From contig NZ_RCHV01000002.1 of NCBI RefSeq assembly GCF_003665095.1, positions 2,974,001-3,038,000 on the forward strand: a stretch of 64,000 nt of DNA, given 5' to 3'. The translations under genes were made by a program, and so were the position numbers. Each line of letters starts with the position of its first letter. Position 1 is the stretch's first letter. The DNA comes from Streptomyces sp. Z26 (GTDB lineage Bacteria; Actinomycetota; Actinomycetes; Streptomycetales; Streptomycetaceae). The notes below the pieces were generated by a model, which was given only the letters and a program-made list of their open reading frames with translations, ran no database searches and had not been told where the DNA came from. Below, one piece after another: positions 59,162-63,442 of this stretch.

Positions 59162-59695
59162 TCAGACCAACGCCTGTTCGGCCGCGTCGTGCGTACGTAC
59201 GCCCACCCGCGTCCGGGTGGACACCAGCCGGCCCTCCTGCGGATAGGAATGCCAGGTGCGCCACGCGACCTGTTCGCCGTGCCGTTGGACGAGCAGCGCG
59301 GTGAAAGCCGTCGGACTTCCCGGAAAGGTGCCCGCGAGGCCGTTCGGATGGTCGGCCACGAGCGCGAGCAACTCCTGCGTGCGCCCCAGGAACGAACCGG
59401 CGGACAACGTCTCGACGCGCGCCGCGAACTCGTACTCCCACGCGCCTATGCGCTTCGACACGCCGAGCGGCAGCGGCGCCGTACTGCCGGGCATGCACGC
59501 CACCGTCTCCGAGCACGAGCCGTGCTCCTCGTCGAGCAGCACCTGGTGGGAGGCGCCGAGCAGGCGCAACCGCACGCGGGCGCCGGAGAGTTCCAGGTCG
59601 AGTTCGGCGAGCGCGGGCAACGGCTCGCGCCCCAGCGCCCAAGCGAGGTCGCCCGCGCGGGTGTCGCTGTACGCGGTCTTGAGAGAAGTGAGCAT
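59162..59695 (-). CDS. DUF2617 family protein
   Basis: A 177-residue soluble protein: TAYSDTRAGDLAWALGREPL, LELSGARVRLRLLGASHQVL, WEYEFAARVETLSAGSFLGR, LAGTFPGSPTAFTALLVQRH, and a terminal VGVRTHDAAEQALV. This matches DUF2617, a companion of membrane spermidine-synthase-like proteins in actinobacteria, with unknown function. The ATG at 59695 has GGAG upstream; the frame is open to 59854 but the extra part is not conserved-looking. Confidence 0.87.
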   Translation of the reverse strand: MLTSLKTAYSDTRAGDLAWALGREPLPALAELDLELSGARVRLRLLGASHQVLLDEEHGSCSETVACMPGSTAPLPLGVSKRIGAWEYEFAARVETLSAGSFLGRTQELLALVADHPNGLAGTFPGSPTAFTALLVQRHGEQVAWRTWHSYPQEGRLVSTRTRVGVRTHDAAEQALV

Positions 59696-59947
59696 GGGTC
59701 GGCTCCGCAAGGCGCAGTTGAGGGTGGGATTCACCGAATCACGGAATGCGCCGGGACCACAGCGTTTTACCCATCTTCGCCGGGTTTCCATCCGCTTGGG
59801 GGCTCGGCTGCGCAACTGTTCAACTCGAAAGCCCACCAAGGGATTACGGCTCATCCGCGAGCAATCGTTTCAGGGAGCTCCGCGAACGGAGGCCCCGGTT
59901 TCGCGCGCCGCGGGAAAAGCAGCGCTCGCGGAGTCGTGCGCGCCCGC

Positions 59948-60124
59948 TCACGCCCGTCTGCGCCGGGAAGCGCGGGAAGCGCGCGGGGGACGGGCCGCGC
60001 CGGGGACGCGTGGATCGCCGCGGCCCCGCTGCCCGTGGGCCCCGACCGCCGCCCGCGGCGCGTCCGGTGGCCGCGGCGGGCACGTCGGCCCCGACAGCCC
60101 CACGGTGATCATCCCCGCGGCCAT
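59948..60124 (-). CDS. Possible small gene downstream of thiF
   Basis: A 58-codon frame starting MAAGMITVGLSGPTCPPRPP, with a good ribosome binding site (GAAGGGGGA, 4 nt before the ATG) and a basic Arg-rich end. It lies 79 nt after the thiF stop on the same strand, in a 508-nt gap otherwise without genes. The early GLSG followed by Thr recalls the end of the 24-residue peptide encoded on the other side of thiF. The tail is the low-complexity kind common in GC-rich noncoding sequence, so this is uncertain. Confidence 0.35.
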   Translation of the reverse strand: MAAGMITVGLSGPTCPPRPPDAPRAAVGAHGQRGRGDPRVPGAARPPRASRASRRRRA

Positions 60125-60203
60125 GGCGTCCCCCTTCGTCCGACCGGCTACCCACCACACGTCGCGCGAGTGATAAGACGGAACGTTCCCGCTGAACTCC
60201 GGT

Positions 60204-61358
60204 TCAATCCCTCCGTGTTGACACTGTGTCGCATTGCGCACCGCCGCAGGCCGGGCAGTCCGTACGGCGGCCGAAGCGGTCGACGGCGGGCTCCTCGGGC
60301 CGGACGAGGTTGAGACCGAAGCGGAATCCCGGCTCCATGGCCGGGACCCCGGTCAGCAGCGCGAGCGCCGCGTGCGCCAGCAGGCTGCCGGAGAGCCCGG
60401 CGGTGACGGCGTTGACCGGGTTCCACGGCATGCGGGGCGAGGCGGCCTCCTCCCCCTGGTCCGGGCCCAGCCGCAGGTCGCGGCGTTCGCGGTCGCCCGC
60501 GCGGTGGCACTCCCAGCAGGCGCCCCGGCCCGGCACGTGGACGCCGACGGAGACCAGCGGGCCGCGGTAACCGCCGTCCACCCACGGCGTACCGGCCGCG
60601 AGACAGGCGGTGTTGGCCCAGCCCCGTACCTCCGCCGGGTGGTCGGCGCACAGCGCCAGCAGGTCGTAGCCGGGGGCCAGCAGGGCGGCGAGGTCGTCCG
60701 GGCCGCCGACGGCGCGGCGCTCGCCGGTGACGGCCACGTCGGAGTTGAGCGCGCGCAGCGACGCGAGGGCCGCGTCGAGCTTGGGGCAGCCGATGTCGTC
60801 CTCGCGGAAGAGGAGTTGCCGGTTGAGGTTGGACAGCTCCACGACGTCCGGCTCGACGCAGTGCAGCAGGCCGACCCCGGAGGACACCAGGGCCTGCGCG
60901 GCGAAGCTCCCCGTCCCGCCGACGCCGACGAGCAGCACCCGGGACCGGCGCAGCCGCAGCTGCAACTCCCAGGCGCTGGCGCGCGGTTGGCGGTCCATCC
61001 AGCGAAGCAGCGGAACGCCCTTGGCGTAACGATTGTGCTCCCGCTCGGACAGCTCGACCGGCGGCCCCGCCCCCGCGTCCTCCAGGAAGCCCGCCGCCAG
61101 CAGCTCCCCCATCGCCTCCACCACGTCGGCGGCGGGCAGCCACGGGTGCCGCACCCGTACGGCCGCGGCGACCTCCGCCGGGGAACGGGCGCCGTCCATC
61201 GCCTCCGTGAGCGTCCAGATCCAGCCGTCGGGGTCGCTGATCTCGGCGCCGAGACCGTAGATGACGCTGCCTATGCGGATATTCCCGTCCACGGTCCGGT
61301 ACGGCCGATGCTCGGGCTTGACCCGCGGTTTTCGTATCGCGTCGATTGTCACCGCCAC
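60204..61358 (-). CDS. ThiF/MccB-type peptide adenylyltransferase with RRE-like N-terminus
   Basis: A 384-residue E1-like enzyme (numbered from the GTG at 61358). Residues about 20-95 (IRIGSVIYGLGAEISDPDGW, LTEAMDGARSPAEVAAAV, LLAAGFLEDA) resemble the PqqD-like peptide-recognition or peptide-clamp domain found before ThiF domains in RiPP pathways and in MccB. The adenylation core is complete: LLVGVGGTGSFAAQ (145-150), the Asp and Arg of PDVVELSNLNRQLLF, and Lys193. Two CxxC pairs (CWEC 281-284, CPAC 368-371) should bind zinc. It is expected to adenylate the C-terminus of a peptide. It is divergent from a 24-codon gene, its likely substrate. An ATG at 61421 is possible but has no ribosome binding site. 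Confidence 0.88.
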   Translation of the reverse strand: MAVTIDAIRKPRVKPEHRPYRTVDGNIRIGSVIYGLGAEISDPDGWIWTLTEAMDGARSPAEVAAAVRVRHPWLPAADVVEAMGELLAAGFLEDAGAGPPVELSEREHNRYAKGVPLLRWMDRQPRASAWELQLRLRRSRVLLVGVGGTGSFAAQALVSSGVGLLHCVEPDVVELSNLNRQLLFREDDIGCPKLDAALASLRALNSDVAVTGERRAVGGPDDLAALLAPGYDLLALCADHPAEVRGWANTACLAAGTPWVDGGYRGPLVSVGVHVPGRGACWECHRAGDRERRDLRLGPDQGEEAASPRMPWNPVNAVTAGLSGSLLAHAALALLTGVPAMEPGFRFGLNLVRPEEPAVDRFGRRTDCPACGGAQCDTVSTRRD

Positions 61359-61464
61359 GCGTTTTCCCCGTCCCTTCGCCCTCGCGACCGAAAGACATCT
61401 TGACACTGTGCCCAGCGCCATGGACTACTGACAAGGCTGCACCACACAAACACGCCAGCGCGGT

Positions 61465-61491
61465 CAACCGGTCCTTATCCTGGGCCGGTTG
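61465..61491. promoter_or_regulatory. Dyad upstream of the 24-codon peptide gene
   Basis: CAACCGG and CCGGTTG, perfect 7-bp arms with a 13-nt spacer that contains TATCCT (61476-61481), a possible -10 box. It ends 6 nt before the ribosome binding site. It could be an operator or a leader hairpin. Confidence 0.5.
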
Positions 61492-61509
61492 AAGTGGAAG
61501 GAGCCGGAA

Positions 61510-61584
61510 GTGGCCCAGAAGATCCAGATAAGGCCGCTCGAAAAGAAAGAGACCACCGGACTCAGCGGCACCAGTAACAGCTGA
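61510..61584 (+). CDS. 24-residue candidate precursor peptide
   Basis: GTG start with a full AAGGAG (61498-61503) at 6 nt. The peptide begins MAQKIQIRPL, continues with a charged EKKE, and ends TTGLSGTSNS before TGA. It has no Cys and no hydrophobic signal. It uses codons that are rare in this genome (ATA, AGG, AAA). It is divergent from the ThiF/MccB-type gene, and an 11-bp hairpin starts 8 nt after its stop; an M14 carboxypeptidase gene follows. The charged N-terminal part would be the leader and the Gly/Ser/Thr/Asn end the core. I cannot assign it to a known precursor family; that it is a precursor is inference from size, signals and neighbours. Confidence 0.7.
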   Translation: MAQKIQIRPLEKKETTGLSGTSNS

Positions 61585-61592
61585 CCGGCCCG

Positions 61593-61621
61593 GGGCGCCC
61601 CCGTCGTGTTCGGGGGCGTCC
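61593..61621 (+). terminator. Hairpin directly after the peptide gene
   Basis: GGGCGCCCCCG / CGGGGGCGTCC, an 11-bp stem with one G-T pair and a 7-nt loop. It can stop or attenuate transcription between the peptide gene and the carboxypeptidase gene, giving more peptide mRNA than enzyme mRNA. Confidence 0.75.
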
Positions 61622-61744
61622 ACGGACCGCCCTCGCGCCTTTCGGTCGTTTCTGCCCGACTGTTCCTCTGCTCCGCGCCACCGCCCCCCGCCCGCTGAGA
61701 AATCGCCCGCAGAGAGCCCGGCAGAGAAGTGAGGCATTCCCCCG

Positions 61745-63442
61745 TTGAGCGAAACCCTGCGCCCGCACGGTGTCCCGCCGTTCAACGACTATCCGACCGT
61801 GTCGGAACTCCACTTCCGCGCCCGCGCGTTCGCCTCCCGCCATCCCGCACGCACCGGCGTACGCCGGGTCGGCACCTCGCGCGCGGGCGAGGAACTGCTG
61901 CTGCTGTCCGTGGGTACCCCGGATACGGCCCCCGACACCCGGCACGGCCCCGGTGTCCGCGCGCGCCCCGACGGCCACCGCGACGTGCTGGTGGTCGCGG
62001 GGCCGCACGCCAACGAACGGGTCGGCGGCGCCACCGCCCTGCGGCTGGCCGAACACGTCGTGGGCGAAAGGCCGTTGCGCGGCGACGGGTCCCACGACGT
62101 CCGCTGGCACTTCCTGCTCTGCCTCGATCCGGACGGCGCCCGGGTGAACGAGCACGGGGCCACGGGAACGGATTCCGCGACGGTCGCGGGAACCAGCCGG
62201 AACACCCTGCTCGGCTACCACCGGCCGTTCTTCCGGCCCCCCGGAAAGGAGCAGCCGGAATGGGCGCCCTCCCTCACCGGAAACGACGGTGAATTACTCC
62301 CGGAAAGCCGCGCCCTGCTCACCGTCATCGACGAAATACGCCCTTTCCTGCAATGCTCCCTGCACGCGAACGACGTCGGCGGAAGCTGGGTCCAACTCAC
62401 CCGCGCGGTGCCCGGATTGCCGGAACCGTTCGCAAAGTCCGCCGCGGATCTGGGAATCCCGGTCGAGATCGGCAGCATCGACACGCTGTATTGGCCGAGT
62501 CCCGGCCCCGGGGTGTTCGTGATGCCCGAACCGGGCGTTCCCGAACGCCTCGCGAGCCTCCAGGAGGACGCGGCGCGCTCCACCTGGTACCACCCGCACC
62601 GGTACGGCGGCATGACGGCCGTCGTGGAGGCGCCGATGTGGGCGAGTCGCCTGGTGGACGACTGCACGCCCGTGCCCGACCCCGGGCCCGCCGTACGCGG
62701 CGCCGCGCTGCGGCTGCGGCGGCGCGGGCGGCGCGTCGCCGCGTTGCTCGACCGCGCGCGCCCGCTGGTGCCCGTCGAGCACGCGCCGGTGCTGCGTGGC
62801 GCGGAGGCGGCCGTGGAGGTGTGCCCGGGGCTGGCGGACGACTGGACGCGCCTGTCGCGGGCGCAGGCACAGGCCCGGGTGCCGGGCCCGGACGCGGCGC
62901 GGGTGCCCGCGCCGGGGTGGGCGGGGCTCGGGGCGGGGGCGACGGTGGTCGGCGGGGCGGCCGGTGGCGGCCGACGGCCGGGCGCGTACGGGGAGACGGG
63001 GCGCGGGGGCACGGCGTACGGGGACGTGGCCGGAGGCGTGGCGGCGCGCGGCACCCGTACGGCACCCGGCCCGCGCCCGTACGCGGGACCGGGCGGCGCG
63101 GGCGCCCGTACGGGCCGGGGCGCGGACGGTGCGGACGGCGCCGGGACGGGCGCCGGGGTGCCCGCGCCACCCGCGCTCACCGCCGGGCACCTCGCCTCCT
63201 TCGCGGGTGTCACCTGGCGCATCCCGCTGCGCGCCGCCGCGATGCTGCTCGGCGCGCTCGACGGCGTACCGGGCCGCGCCGCCGGGGAGTTGCGGGCGGA
63301 GCTGGCGGGGATCGTGTCGGCGTGGTGCGCGGCCTTCGAGTGCGAGTTCCAGACGCGCTGGGTGCCGCTCGACGACCAGGTGCGGCACCAGGCGCGTACG
63401 GTCCTCGCGGTCCTCGACCGCGTCGGCCACGGTCGTGCGTGA
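61745..63442 (+). CDS. M14 family zinc carboxypeptidase with a TTA codon
   Basis: A 565-residue protein. The catalytic domain (about 15-310) has zinc ligands His88 and Glu91 (GPHANERVGG) and His207 (LQCSLHANDVGG), and the general base Glu295 (TAVVEAPMW), so it looks active. A helical C-terminal part (320-390 and 480-560) is split by a Gly/Ala/Thr/Arg low-complexity insert (about 400-475). There is no signal peptide, so it acts in the cytosol. Codon 184 is TTA (62294-62296), the codon read by the bldA tRNA. The TTG at 61745 follows an in-frame stop. The 5' half uses more A-ending codons than its neighbours. Carboxypeptidase action on the nearby peptide is inference. Confidence 0.87.
   Translation: MSETLRPHGVPPFNDYPTVSELHFRARAFASRHPARTGVRRVGTSRAGEELLLLSVGTPDTAPDTRHGPGVRARPDGHRDVLVVAGPHANERVGGATALRLAEHVVGERPLRGDGSHDVRWHFLLCLDPDGARVNEHGATGTDSATVAGTSRNTLLGYHRPFFRPPGKEQPEWAPSLTGNDGELLPESRALLTVIDEIRPFLQCSLHANDVGGSWVQLTRAVPGLPEPFAKSAADLGIPVEIGSIDTLYWPSPGPGVFVMPEPGVPERLASLQEDAARSTWYHPHRYGGMTAVVEAPMWASRLVDDCTPVPDPGPAVRGAALRLRRRGRRVAALLDRARPLVPVEHAPVLRGAEAAVEVCPGLADDWTRLSRAQAQARVPGPDAARVPAPGWAGLGAGATVVGGAAGGGRRPGAYGETGRGGTAYGDVAGGVAARGTRTAPGPRPYAGPGGAGARTGRGADGADGAGTGAGVPAPPALTAGHLASFAGVTWRIPLRAAAMLLGALDGVPGRAAGELRAELAGIVSAWCAAFECEFQTRWVPLDDQVRHQARTVLAVLDRVGHGRA

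Follow-up and report, generated by a model that had tools for sequence, protein, structure and literature searches.

The cassette and its adenylating enzyme

A 64,000-nucleotide stretch of the Streptomyces sp. Z26 genome (contig NZ_RCHV01000002.1, positions 2,974,001 to 3,038,000; hereafter the window) contains a confirmed trio of genes, encoding a ThiF-type adenylating enzyme, a 24-codon peptide and an M14 metallocarboxypeptidase (Table 1). The peptide gene is divergent from the ThiF gene, and the M14 gene lies downstream of the peptide gene. Judged from their sequences, the enzyme and the short peptide very probably form a unit of the kind that makes ribosomally synthesized and post-translationally modified peptides (RiPPs). 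An earlier note made from the DNA letters had proposed such a unit, and the proposal is supported by the conservation of the peptide's leader at ThiF loci and by the structural match of the enzyme to MccB and PaaA. The boundary given there was wrong, as the cassette starts at 60204 and not at 59948.

The 405-residue ThiF protein matches the Pfam ThiF domain at E=7e-41. A sequence search of the PDB places it closest to MccB (E=6e-25, residues 126-308) and PaaA (phmmer, E=2e-22, residues 31-231, peptide clamp included). An AlphaFold model built from 36 sequences (predicted local distance difference test, pLDDT, 89) aligns over about 370 columns with MccB chains and over 356 with PaaA; both alignments span the N-terminal clamp, the RiPP recognition element (RRE), and bear out the clamp-like domain suspected earlier. 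The glycines of the ATP loop, D192, R201, Q202, K214, D260 and four cysteines are invariant in 36 aligned sequences, in agreement with the intact ATP loop, Asp/Arg/Lys set and two CxxC pairs first read from the letters. The spacing of R201, K214 and D260 is within one residue of that of Arg167, Lys180 and Asp225 in EnfB (PMC12250964), and the Q202-K214 spacing is identical to that of Gln167 and Lys179 in IndF (PMC12150305). The enzyme may start at GTG 61358 or 61352 instead of ATG 61421, since the model is poor over residues 1-18 and a later start is seen in many homologues. A housekeeping ThiF/MoeB function was rejected, NCBIfam matches being far under the curated cut-offs. Enlarged ThiF enzymes (458-612 residues as called) are found at loci L054, L055, L036 and L159, and in the alignment the E1 domain of the L033 and L034 copies is interrupted by an insertion close to residue 250.

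The peptide gene runs from a GTG at 61510 to a stop codon ending at 61584. An AAGGAG lies six bases before the start, confirming the good ribosome binding site noted previously. A second precursor in the open reading frame (ORF) at 59948-60241 was rejected: tblastn with the 58 residues read from an internal ATG found nothing convincing in four related loci (best E 0.23).

Table 1. Features of the cassette, in window coordinates.
Feature	Position	Strand	Basis
RRE-ThiF (MccB/PaaA-like) E1-type adenylating enzyme, 405 aa from ATG	60204-61421	-	Pfam PF00899, PDB sequence search, structure match
N-terminal RRE/peptide-clamp domain, residues ~30-115, short strands and three helices	61077-61334	-	Model, MccB/PaaA structure alignment, phmmer
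ATP-binding GxGGxG loop, residues 166-171	60909-60926	-	Glycines invariant in 36 sequences
Span of catalytic R201, Q202, K214, D260	60642-60821	-	Invariant in 36 sequences
Span of zinc-type CxxC pairs C302/C305 and C389/C392	60246-60518	-	Invariant in 36 sequences
Shine-Dalgarno AAGGAG of peptide gene	61498-61503	+	Sequence
Precursor peptide, 24 codons, VAQKIQIRPLEKKETTGLSGTSNS	61510-61584	+	Conserved beside ThiF
Leader motif IQIRPLEKKETT	61522-61557	+	Residue conservation, pN/pS
Putative variable tail/core GLSGTSNS (+5 Ser codon, 61564-61566)	61558-61581	+	Ser/Cys frequency, pN/pS
M14 metallocarboxypeptidase, TTG start as read, HxxE...H...E set	61745-63442	+	Pfam, Foldseek, residues
Low-confidence Gly/Ala/Thr-rich linker within M14 protein, residues 396-468	62930-63148	+	pLDDT <50

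Conservation and anatomy of the precursor

Two samples were used. In 394 sampled genomes of one family, that of the window genome (itself 94.8% complete), ThiF relatives counted at E<=1e-40 were found in 59. Loci were examined in a set of 136, made up of 56 loci and 80 named loci (the two sets overlap); the named loci are 80 kept from at least 369 confirmed ThiF loci. A ThiF ORF was called at 133 of the 136, which gave 119 distinct ThiF ends after copies were merged; L152, L156 and L157 are left out of this count, though precursors are present there.

A peptide with the strict leader motif, [IV]x[IV]RxL[DE]KxETT, lies within 3.5 kb of ThiF at 116 of the 136 loci. Among the 119 distinct loci, 103 have a leader peptide, including three Gln or Met variants read by eye, and a relaxed scan, which also returned chance matches, added four more. 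Absence of the peptide from other ThiF-bearing genomes had been named beforehand as the result that would speak against the unit; the leader was found at 107 of 119 loci, all in Actinomycetota. Strict matches to the motif number 131 in the 1057 kb that lie within 3.5 kb of ThiF and two in the remaining 1280 kb of the same records, where one of the two reads as a genuine precursor. At the DNA level, a strict leader pattern matched 32 sites in 27 of the 394 genomes, and all 27 are among the 59 with ThiF; 29 of the sites are at a ThiF locus and three are extra, unlinked precursors beside a GNAT acetyltransferase gene. The genome counts from this pattern are lower bounds, since it misses the window precursor itself, whose Arg codon is AGG. 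No NCBIfam model matches the six precursors scanned, and the precursors are absent from the (incomplete) gene tables of three plasmid records.

The conserved mark is the leader. The earlier suggestion that a TTGLSGTSNS-like tail would identify the family was not borne out, as the tail differs from genome to genome. In 83 distinct peptides, counting from the Glu of the ETT motif as position 0, the leader Arg is kept in 82, Leu in 83, Glu in 81 (Gln in two, with ThiF kept at those loci) and Thr in 80. For peptides with 8-residue tails (61 distinct DNA sequences), raw pairwise averages of nonsynonymous (pN) and synonymous (pS) differences, taken with no tree, are 0.16 and 0.49 in the leader and 0.43 and 0.48 in the tail; for 9-residue tails (30 distinct DNA sequences) they are 0.10 and 0.26 in the leader and 0.25 and 0.25 in the tail. 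With pN/pS at about 0.33 in the leader and about 0.9 in the tail, leaders look to be under purifying selection while tails diverge, which is the usual signature of a RiPP leader and core. Sequence comparison establishes the gene unit, the leader/core division, the intact catalytic residues and the varying partner peptidase described below.

Two regularities are seen within the tails. Position +5 is Ser in 40 and Cys in 8 of 63 distinct tails, whereas Ser or Cys occupies other tail positions at 5-30%, and the C-terminus falls at +10 in 35 and +11 in 14 (49 of 63). The last residue itself is variable (Asn 16, Ala 14, Ser 9, Gly 9, Thr 9, Asp 1). Ser/Cys at +5 is present in 22 of 22 tails exclusive to M14 loci and in 24 of 39 exclusive to non-M14 loci, a contrast confounded by kinship. 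A penultimate Gly is found in 20 of 22 M14-only tails and in 11 of 39 without M14, which is weak and likewise confounded because many non-M14 tails stem from other genera; the window tail is one of the two M14-only tails without it.

Some loci depart from the single-peptide arrangement. L104 9626-9823 (-), L105 9704-9859 (+) and L106 9409-9606 (+) are the extra precursors mentioned above; they end in MAQKIEIRPLDKKETTGDSNSQGA, are far from ThiF and each adjoin the GNAT gene (assigned by Pfam for the L104 copy), a relative of which also adjoins a precursor in L051. Two or three precursors per locus occur near ThiF in L177, L186 and L187 (Nonomuraea and a Streptomyces plasmid), with Cys-rich tails (GVCQDCNYA, QACPANNPGCGAG, AGCGRCES). 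The ThiF + M14 loci L070 and L072 (near 10390, - strand) have candidate short peptides (MDAT...) that do not show the leader motif and are possibly a separate precursor type.

Partner peptidases and neighbouring genes

The window M14 protein matches Pfam at E=5e-12 and has H88, E91, H207 and E295, so that the carboxypeptidase with a catalytic set predicted from the letters was recovered. Foldseek matches of its model are carboxypeptidases (best E 1e-9), with TM-scores of only about 0.3-0.6, and no PDB chain was matched by sequence at E<=0.1. As a member of the unit the enzyme fares less evenly. It adjoins the peptide gene in the window, yet it is not obligatory: the 136 loci divide into M14 alone (20), two M14s (16), M14 with an M50-type metalloprotease (44), M50 alone (38) and neither (18). 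Some M50 or M14 genes were perhaps missed, e.g., in L108, as ORFs were called with a simple codon-composition script. Independent occurrence of ThiF and M14 had been the other result said to count against a three-gene unit, and M14 homologues (E<=1e-15) are indeed found in 219 of the 394 genomes as against 59 for ThiF; the peptide-ThiF pair stands. M14 relatives are found without ThiF as well, so M14 seems to have been recruited and not to be an obligatory member. In a tree of 45 chosen sequences, to which a long-branch warning is attached, M14s next to a peptide are polyphyletic (six label changes, at least five of them forced), which is read as M14 having been recruited repeatedly to a core of ThiF and peptide; gene loss, or M14 being a common gene that lies nearby by chance, may also account for the pattern. 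In the same tree the second M14s of double loci form one clade, whose sister group is the first M14s of the same loci. Several of the eight M14 stretches without ThiF that were read adjoin alpha-amylase-family genes. At L095 (7579-10586) and L096 (7365-10069) a convergent M14 pair surrounds a 137-residue protein that, judged by eye, has an apparent signal sequence; alpha-amylase-family genes adjoin the pair, and neither stretch has a ThiF.

The M50-type partner is present at 82 of 136 loci and reaches genera where no M14 was seen. Its HExxH and a later Asp are invariant in 19 aligned copies. Pfam matches to M50 and, in one member, to PqqD are weak and below cut-off, and the label RRE for this protein rests on such matches; a weak match to the daptide metalloprotease model was also found. 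At the named loci, 29 of 53 M50 genes start 4 bp before the ThiF stop and 46 of 53 share the ThiF strand at a distance of no more than 400 bp. A search for M50 relatives gave no match in the M14-only genomes G000 (the window genome), G310 and G373 and a match in the control G221; G039, G118, G127 and G100, sampled as double-M14 genomes, have distant M50 relatives elsewhere. M14 and M50 appear interchangeable at these loci.

Other neighbours are not shared widely. A scan of 148 of the 187 eligible genes at named loci (near-copy loci excluded beforehand), with families counted among the 25 commonest of 166, gave no family with more than eight members; DUF6879 and TetR had eight each. The DUF6879 genes are presumably of the helix-turn-helix-partner type. 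Neither YcaO nor radical SAM enzymes are found among 12 window genes (50.5-63.9 kb) or in those 25 families, and the same scans saw no PEARL enzyme, though no search was made with PEARL's own model. No E2 or JAMM partner was found in the window and neighbour scans, the PADLOC scan covering ThiF, M14 and one M50. In the window, a DUF2617 gene at 59162-59854 (-) sits downstream of ThiF, where other loci have the M50 gene; this chromosomal setting is common to L079 and L107. Distant ThiF genes in L074 (3484-10228) and L059 (2613-11389) accompany oligopeptide ABC transporter genes, an M3 oligopeptidase (L074) or a SARP-type regulator (L059), hinting at a re-imported signal peptide.

Comparison with known systems

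The cassette shows three of the features by which ThiF-like adenylyltransferase (TLAT) RiPP pathways are recognized: an RRE-ThiF fusion, intact ATP-site and catalytic residues, and an adjacent precursor with a conserved leader and a variable core. MccB of microcin C7 (PDB 3h5n, 6om4) shares the RRE-ThiF fusion, a full-length fold match and a very short precursor. The cassette differs in its M14/M50 partners and in its precursor, which is 24 residues long, has a conserved leader and varies in its last residue; the C-terminal Asn or Asp expected for MccB is not general, as the window peptide ends in Ser and the 63 tails include 16 with Asn and one with Asp. PaaA (PDB 5ff5) has the same architecture, with a match that includes the RRE. 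Pantocin A has a Glu-Glu-Asn core, whereas no such core is present among the 80 distinct peptides listed, and Glu(0) of the cassette can be Gln, as noted above. The streptococcal and enterococcal enzymes GrcB, EnfB and IndF are also leader-dependent and ThiF-like (PMC12250964; PMC12150305); EnfB and IndF have near-identical spacing of ATP-site residues to the window enzyme, and the EnfB leader requires (V/I)RKA where the cassette leader has (V/I)RxL. In contrast, the cassette has no WWIVI or NWYFI core, uses M14/M50 rather than M16, and at its 80 named loci is confined to Actinomycetota. Pearlins, whose M50 enzymes are TglG and TmoG, share an M50-processed peptide and possible C-terminal release (PMC10885120), but the cassette has ThiF in place of the PEARL enzyme, which is dehydratase-like and acts on the C-terminus of the scaffold.

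Proposed pathway and alternatives

In characterized relatives, the leader is held by the RRE and the ThiF domain turns a carboxylate into an acyl-adenylate, which a nucleophile attacks to give N-P bonds (MccB), a thiolactone (GrcB), an imide (EnfB) or an indolylamide (IndF); IndF and EnfB activate the C-terminus (PMC12150305; PMC12250964). By analogy, the RRE of the window enzyme would hold the conserved leader strand (I-x-I-R-x-L-E-K-K-E-T-T) of the 24-mer for adenylation of one of the peptide's carboxylates by the ThiF domain. We infer peptide adenylation, its site, ring closure and the order of the steps. The C-terminus is the probable site, because Glu(0), the best conserved acidic side chain, is Gln in two ThiF-linked peptides. 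The exchange of Ser and Cys at a fixed position suggests a nucleophile; in the commonest version, +5 Ser/Cys might attack the acyl-adenylate to form a small lactone or thiolactone, a step put forward only tentatively. M14 would act at the same end, stripping the last residue or residues before closure (a plausible trimming that could expose the correct end) or releasing or editing the product, and the M50-type protease would do the processing at other loci. A +10 tail minus one residue would give a five-residue ring, which is arithmetic and not evidence; this is the ring size of staphylococcal autoinducing peptides (PMC12250964). Taken as a whole, a RiPP pathway with C-terminal adenylation, a ring in its commonest version and peptidase processing is moderately favored.

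Several observations weigh against this pathway. A scan of window genes showed no exporter or dedicated leader protease. The strict DNA pattern has no match in 32 of the 59 ThiF genomes, the window's own included. M14 is absent (within 3 kb) from 56 of 136 ThiF loci, and its kin live without ThiF. Fifteen of 63 tails have no Ser/Cys at +5, some having no Ser or Cys anywhere, so the ring idea as stated is not valid for every member; several of these tails belong to more distant ThiF enzymes. Finally, a C-terminally closed peptide would not be a substrate for an ordinary carboxypeptidase.

In one alternative, ThiF would activate the side chain of the ETT Glu, +5 Ser/Cys would close an ester or thioester, and M14 would then trim the tail left free beyond the ring, which would account for the presence of a carboxypeptidase. 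This Glu is conserved in 81 of 83 peptides, and PaaA acts on Glu residues. GrcB links Glu35 to Cys39, although the review is inconsistent as to whether this enzyme adenylates the Glu side chain or the C-terminus (PMC12250964). The two peptides with Gln in place of Glu, still accompanied by ThiF, and the tail length fixed at +10 or +11 in 49 of 63 make this account quite improbable. The main rival to C-terminal closure treats the peptide as a reusable scaffold and not as the product: ThiF would activate the C-terminus, an external amine or amino acid would be joined, and M14 or M50 would later cut the product off, as in pearlins. EnfB can form amides between its activated C-terminus and free amines (PMC12250964), and TglG and TmoG free C-terminal products (PMC10885120). 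The apparent mutual replacement of M14 and M50 in the M14-only genomes, tails that resemble flexible linkers and the three genomes with extra precursors beside a GNAT gene fit this scheme as well. It is nevertheless unlikely, as the neighbour scan gave no widely recurring tailoring family, the +5 Ser/Cys and the Cys-rich Nonomuraea tails are left unexplained, and four genomes, double-M14 or other, do hold distant M50 relatives elsewhere. Its fuller form, in which an E1-charged 24-residue handle serves to build a small molecule that is unloaded by M14 or an interchangeable M50, is rather improbable; if true, the pearlin strategy would have been invented a second time with unrelated enzymes.

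The role of M14 can also be questioned while ThiF and the peptide are kept as a real unit, the neighbouring M14 being unrelated or a host-maintained peptidase. The wide occurrence of M14 homologues, the copies beside alpha-amylase-family genes and the ThiF loci that do without M14 agree with this view. M14 has, however, joined ThiF and the peptide in several separate places in the tree, the second M14s of double loci are sister to their neighbours, and all 22 M14-only tails have Ser/Cys at +5 (with the confounding by kinship given above), so that mere proximity seems an unlikely explanation. An antiphage or ubiquitin-like conjugation module of the CBASS/Bil kind was suggested by matches of the E1 domain to PADLOC E1-E2 models (best 49 bits). 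These matches span the E1 domain only, with none to M14 or M50, while MccB and PaaA give better matches that extend over the RRE; with a conserved short precursor as the constant partner, a conjugation function is extremely improbable.

Distribution and significance

The named loci are found in Streptomyces, Kitasatospora, Actinacidiphila, Nocardia, Glycomyces, Microbispora, Nonomuraea, Amycolatopsis and other genera. Plasmid records label the enzyme only as a "ThiF family adenylyltransferase" and the protease as a "site-2 protease family protein" or hypothetical. Among the open-access papers listed by the searches, judged by titles and abstract openings, none gave a description or name of the cassette, and the main text of the ThiF-like RiPP review contains no mention of Streptomyces, actinobacteria, actinomycetes, carboxypeptidase, M50 or M14 (PMC12250964). 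Several other ThiF clusters fit the criteria of the IndF paper in its Fig. S1 (PMC12150305), and the present family may be among them.

The cassette appears to be a new family inside a known kind, the ThiF-like RiPP pathways. The chemistries of this kind described in PMC12150305 and PMC12250964 belong to enterobacteria, streptococci and their relatives, and differ from one another. In its smallest version the cassette consists of two enzymes and one peptide, and its chemistry is therefore directly testable in a tube. It is widespread in actinomycetes, many of them soil-living, and its products are likely to be a new family of modified peptides.

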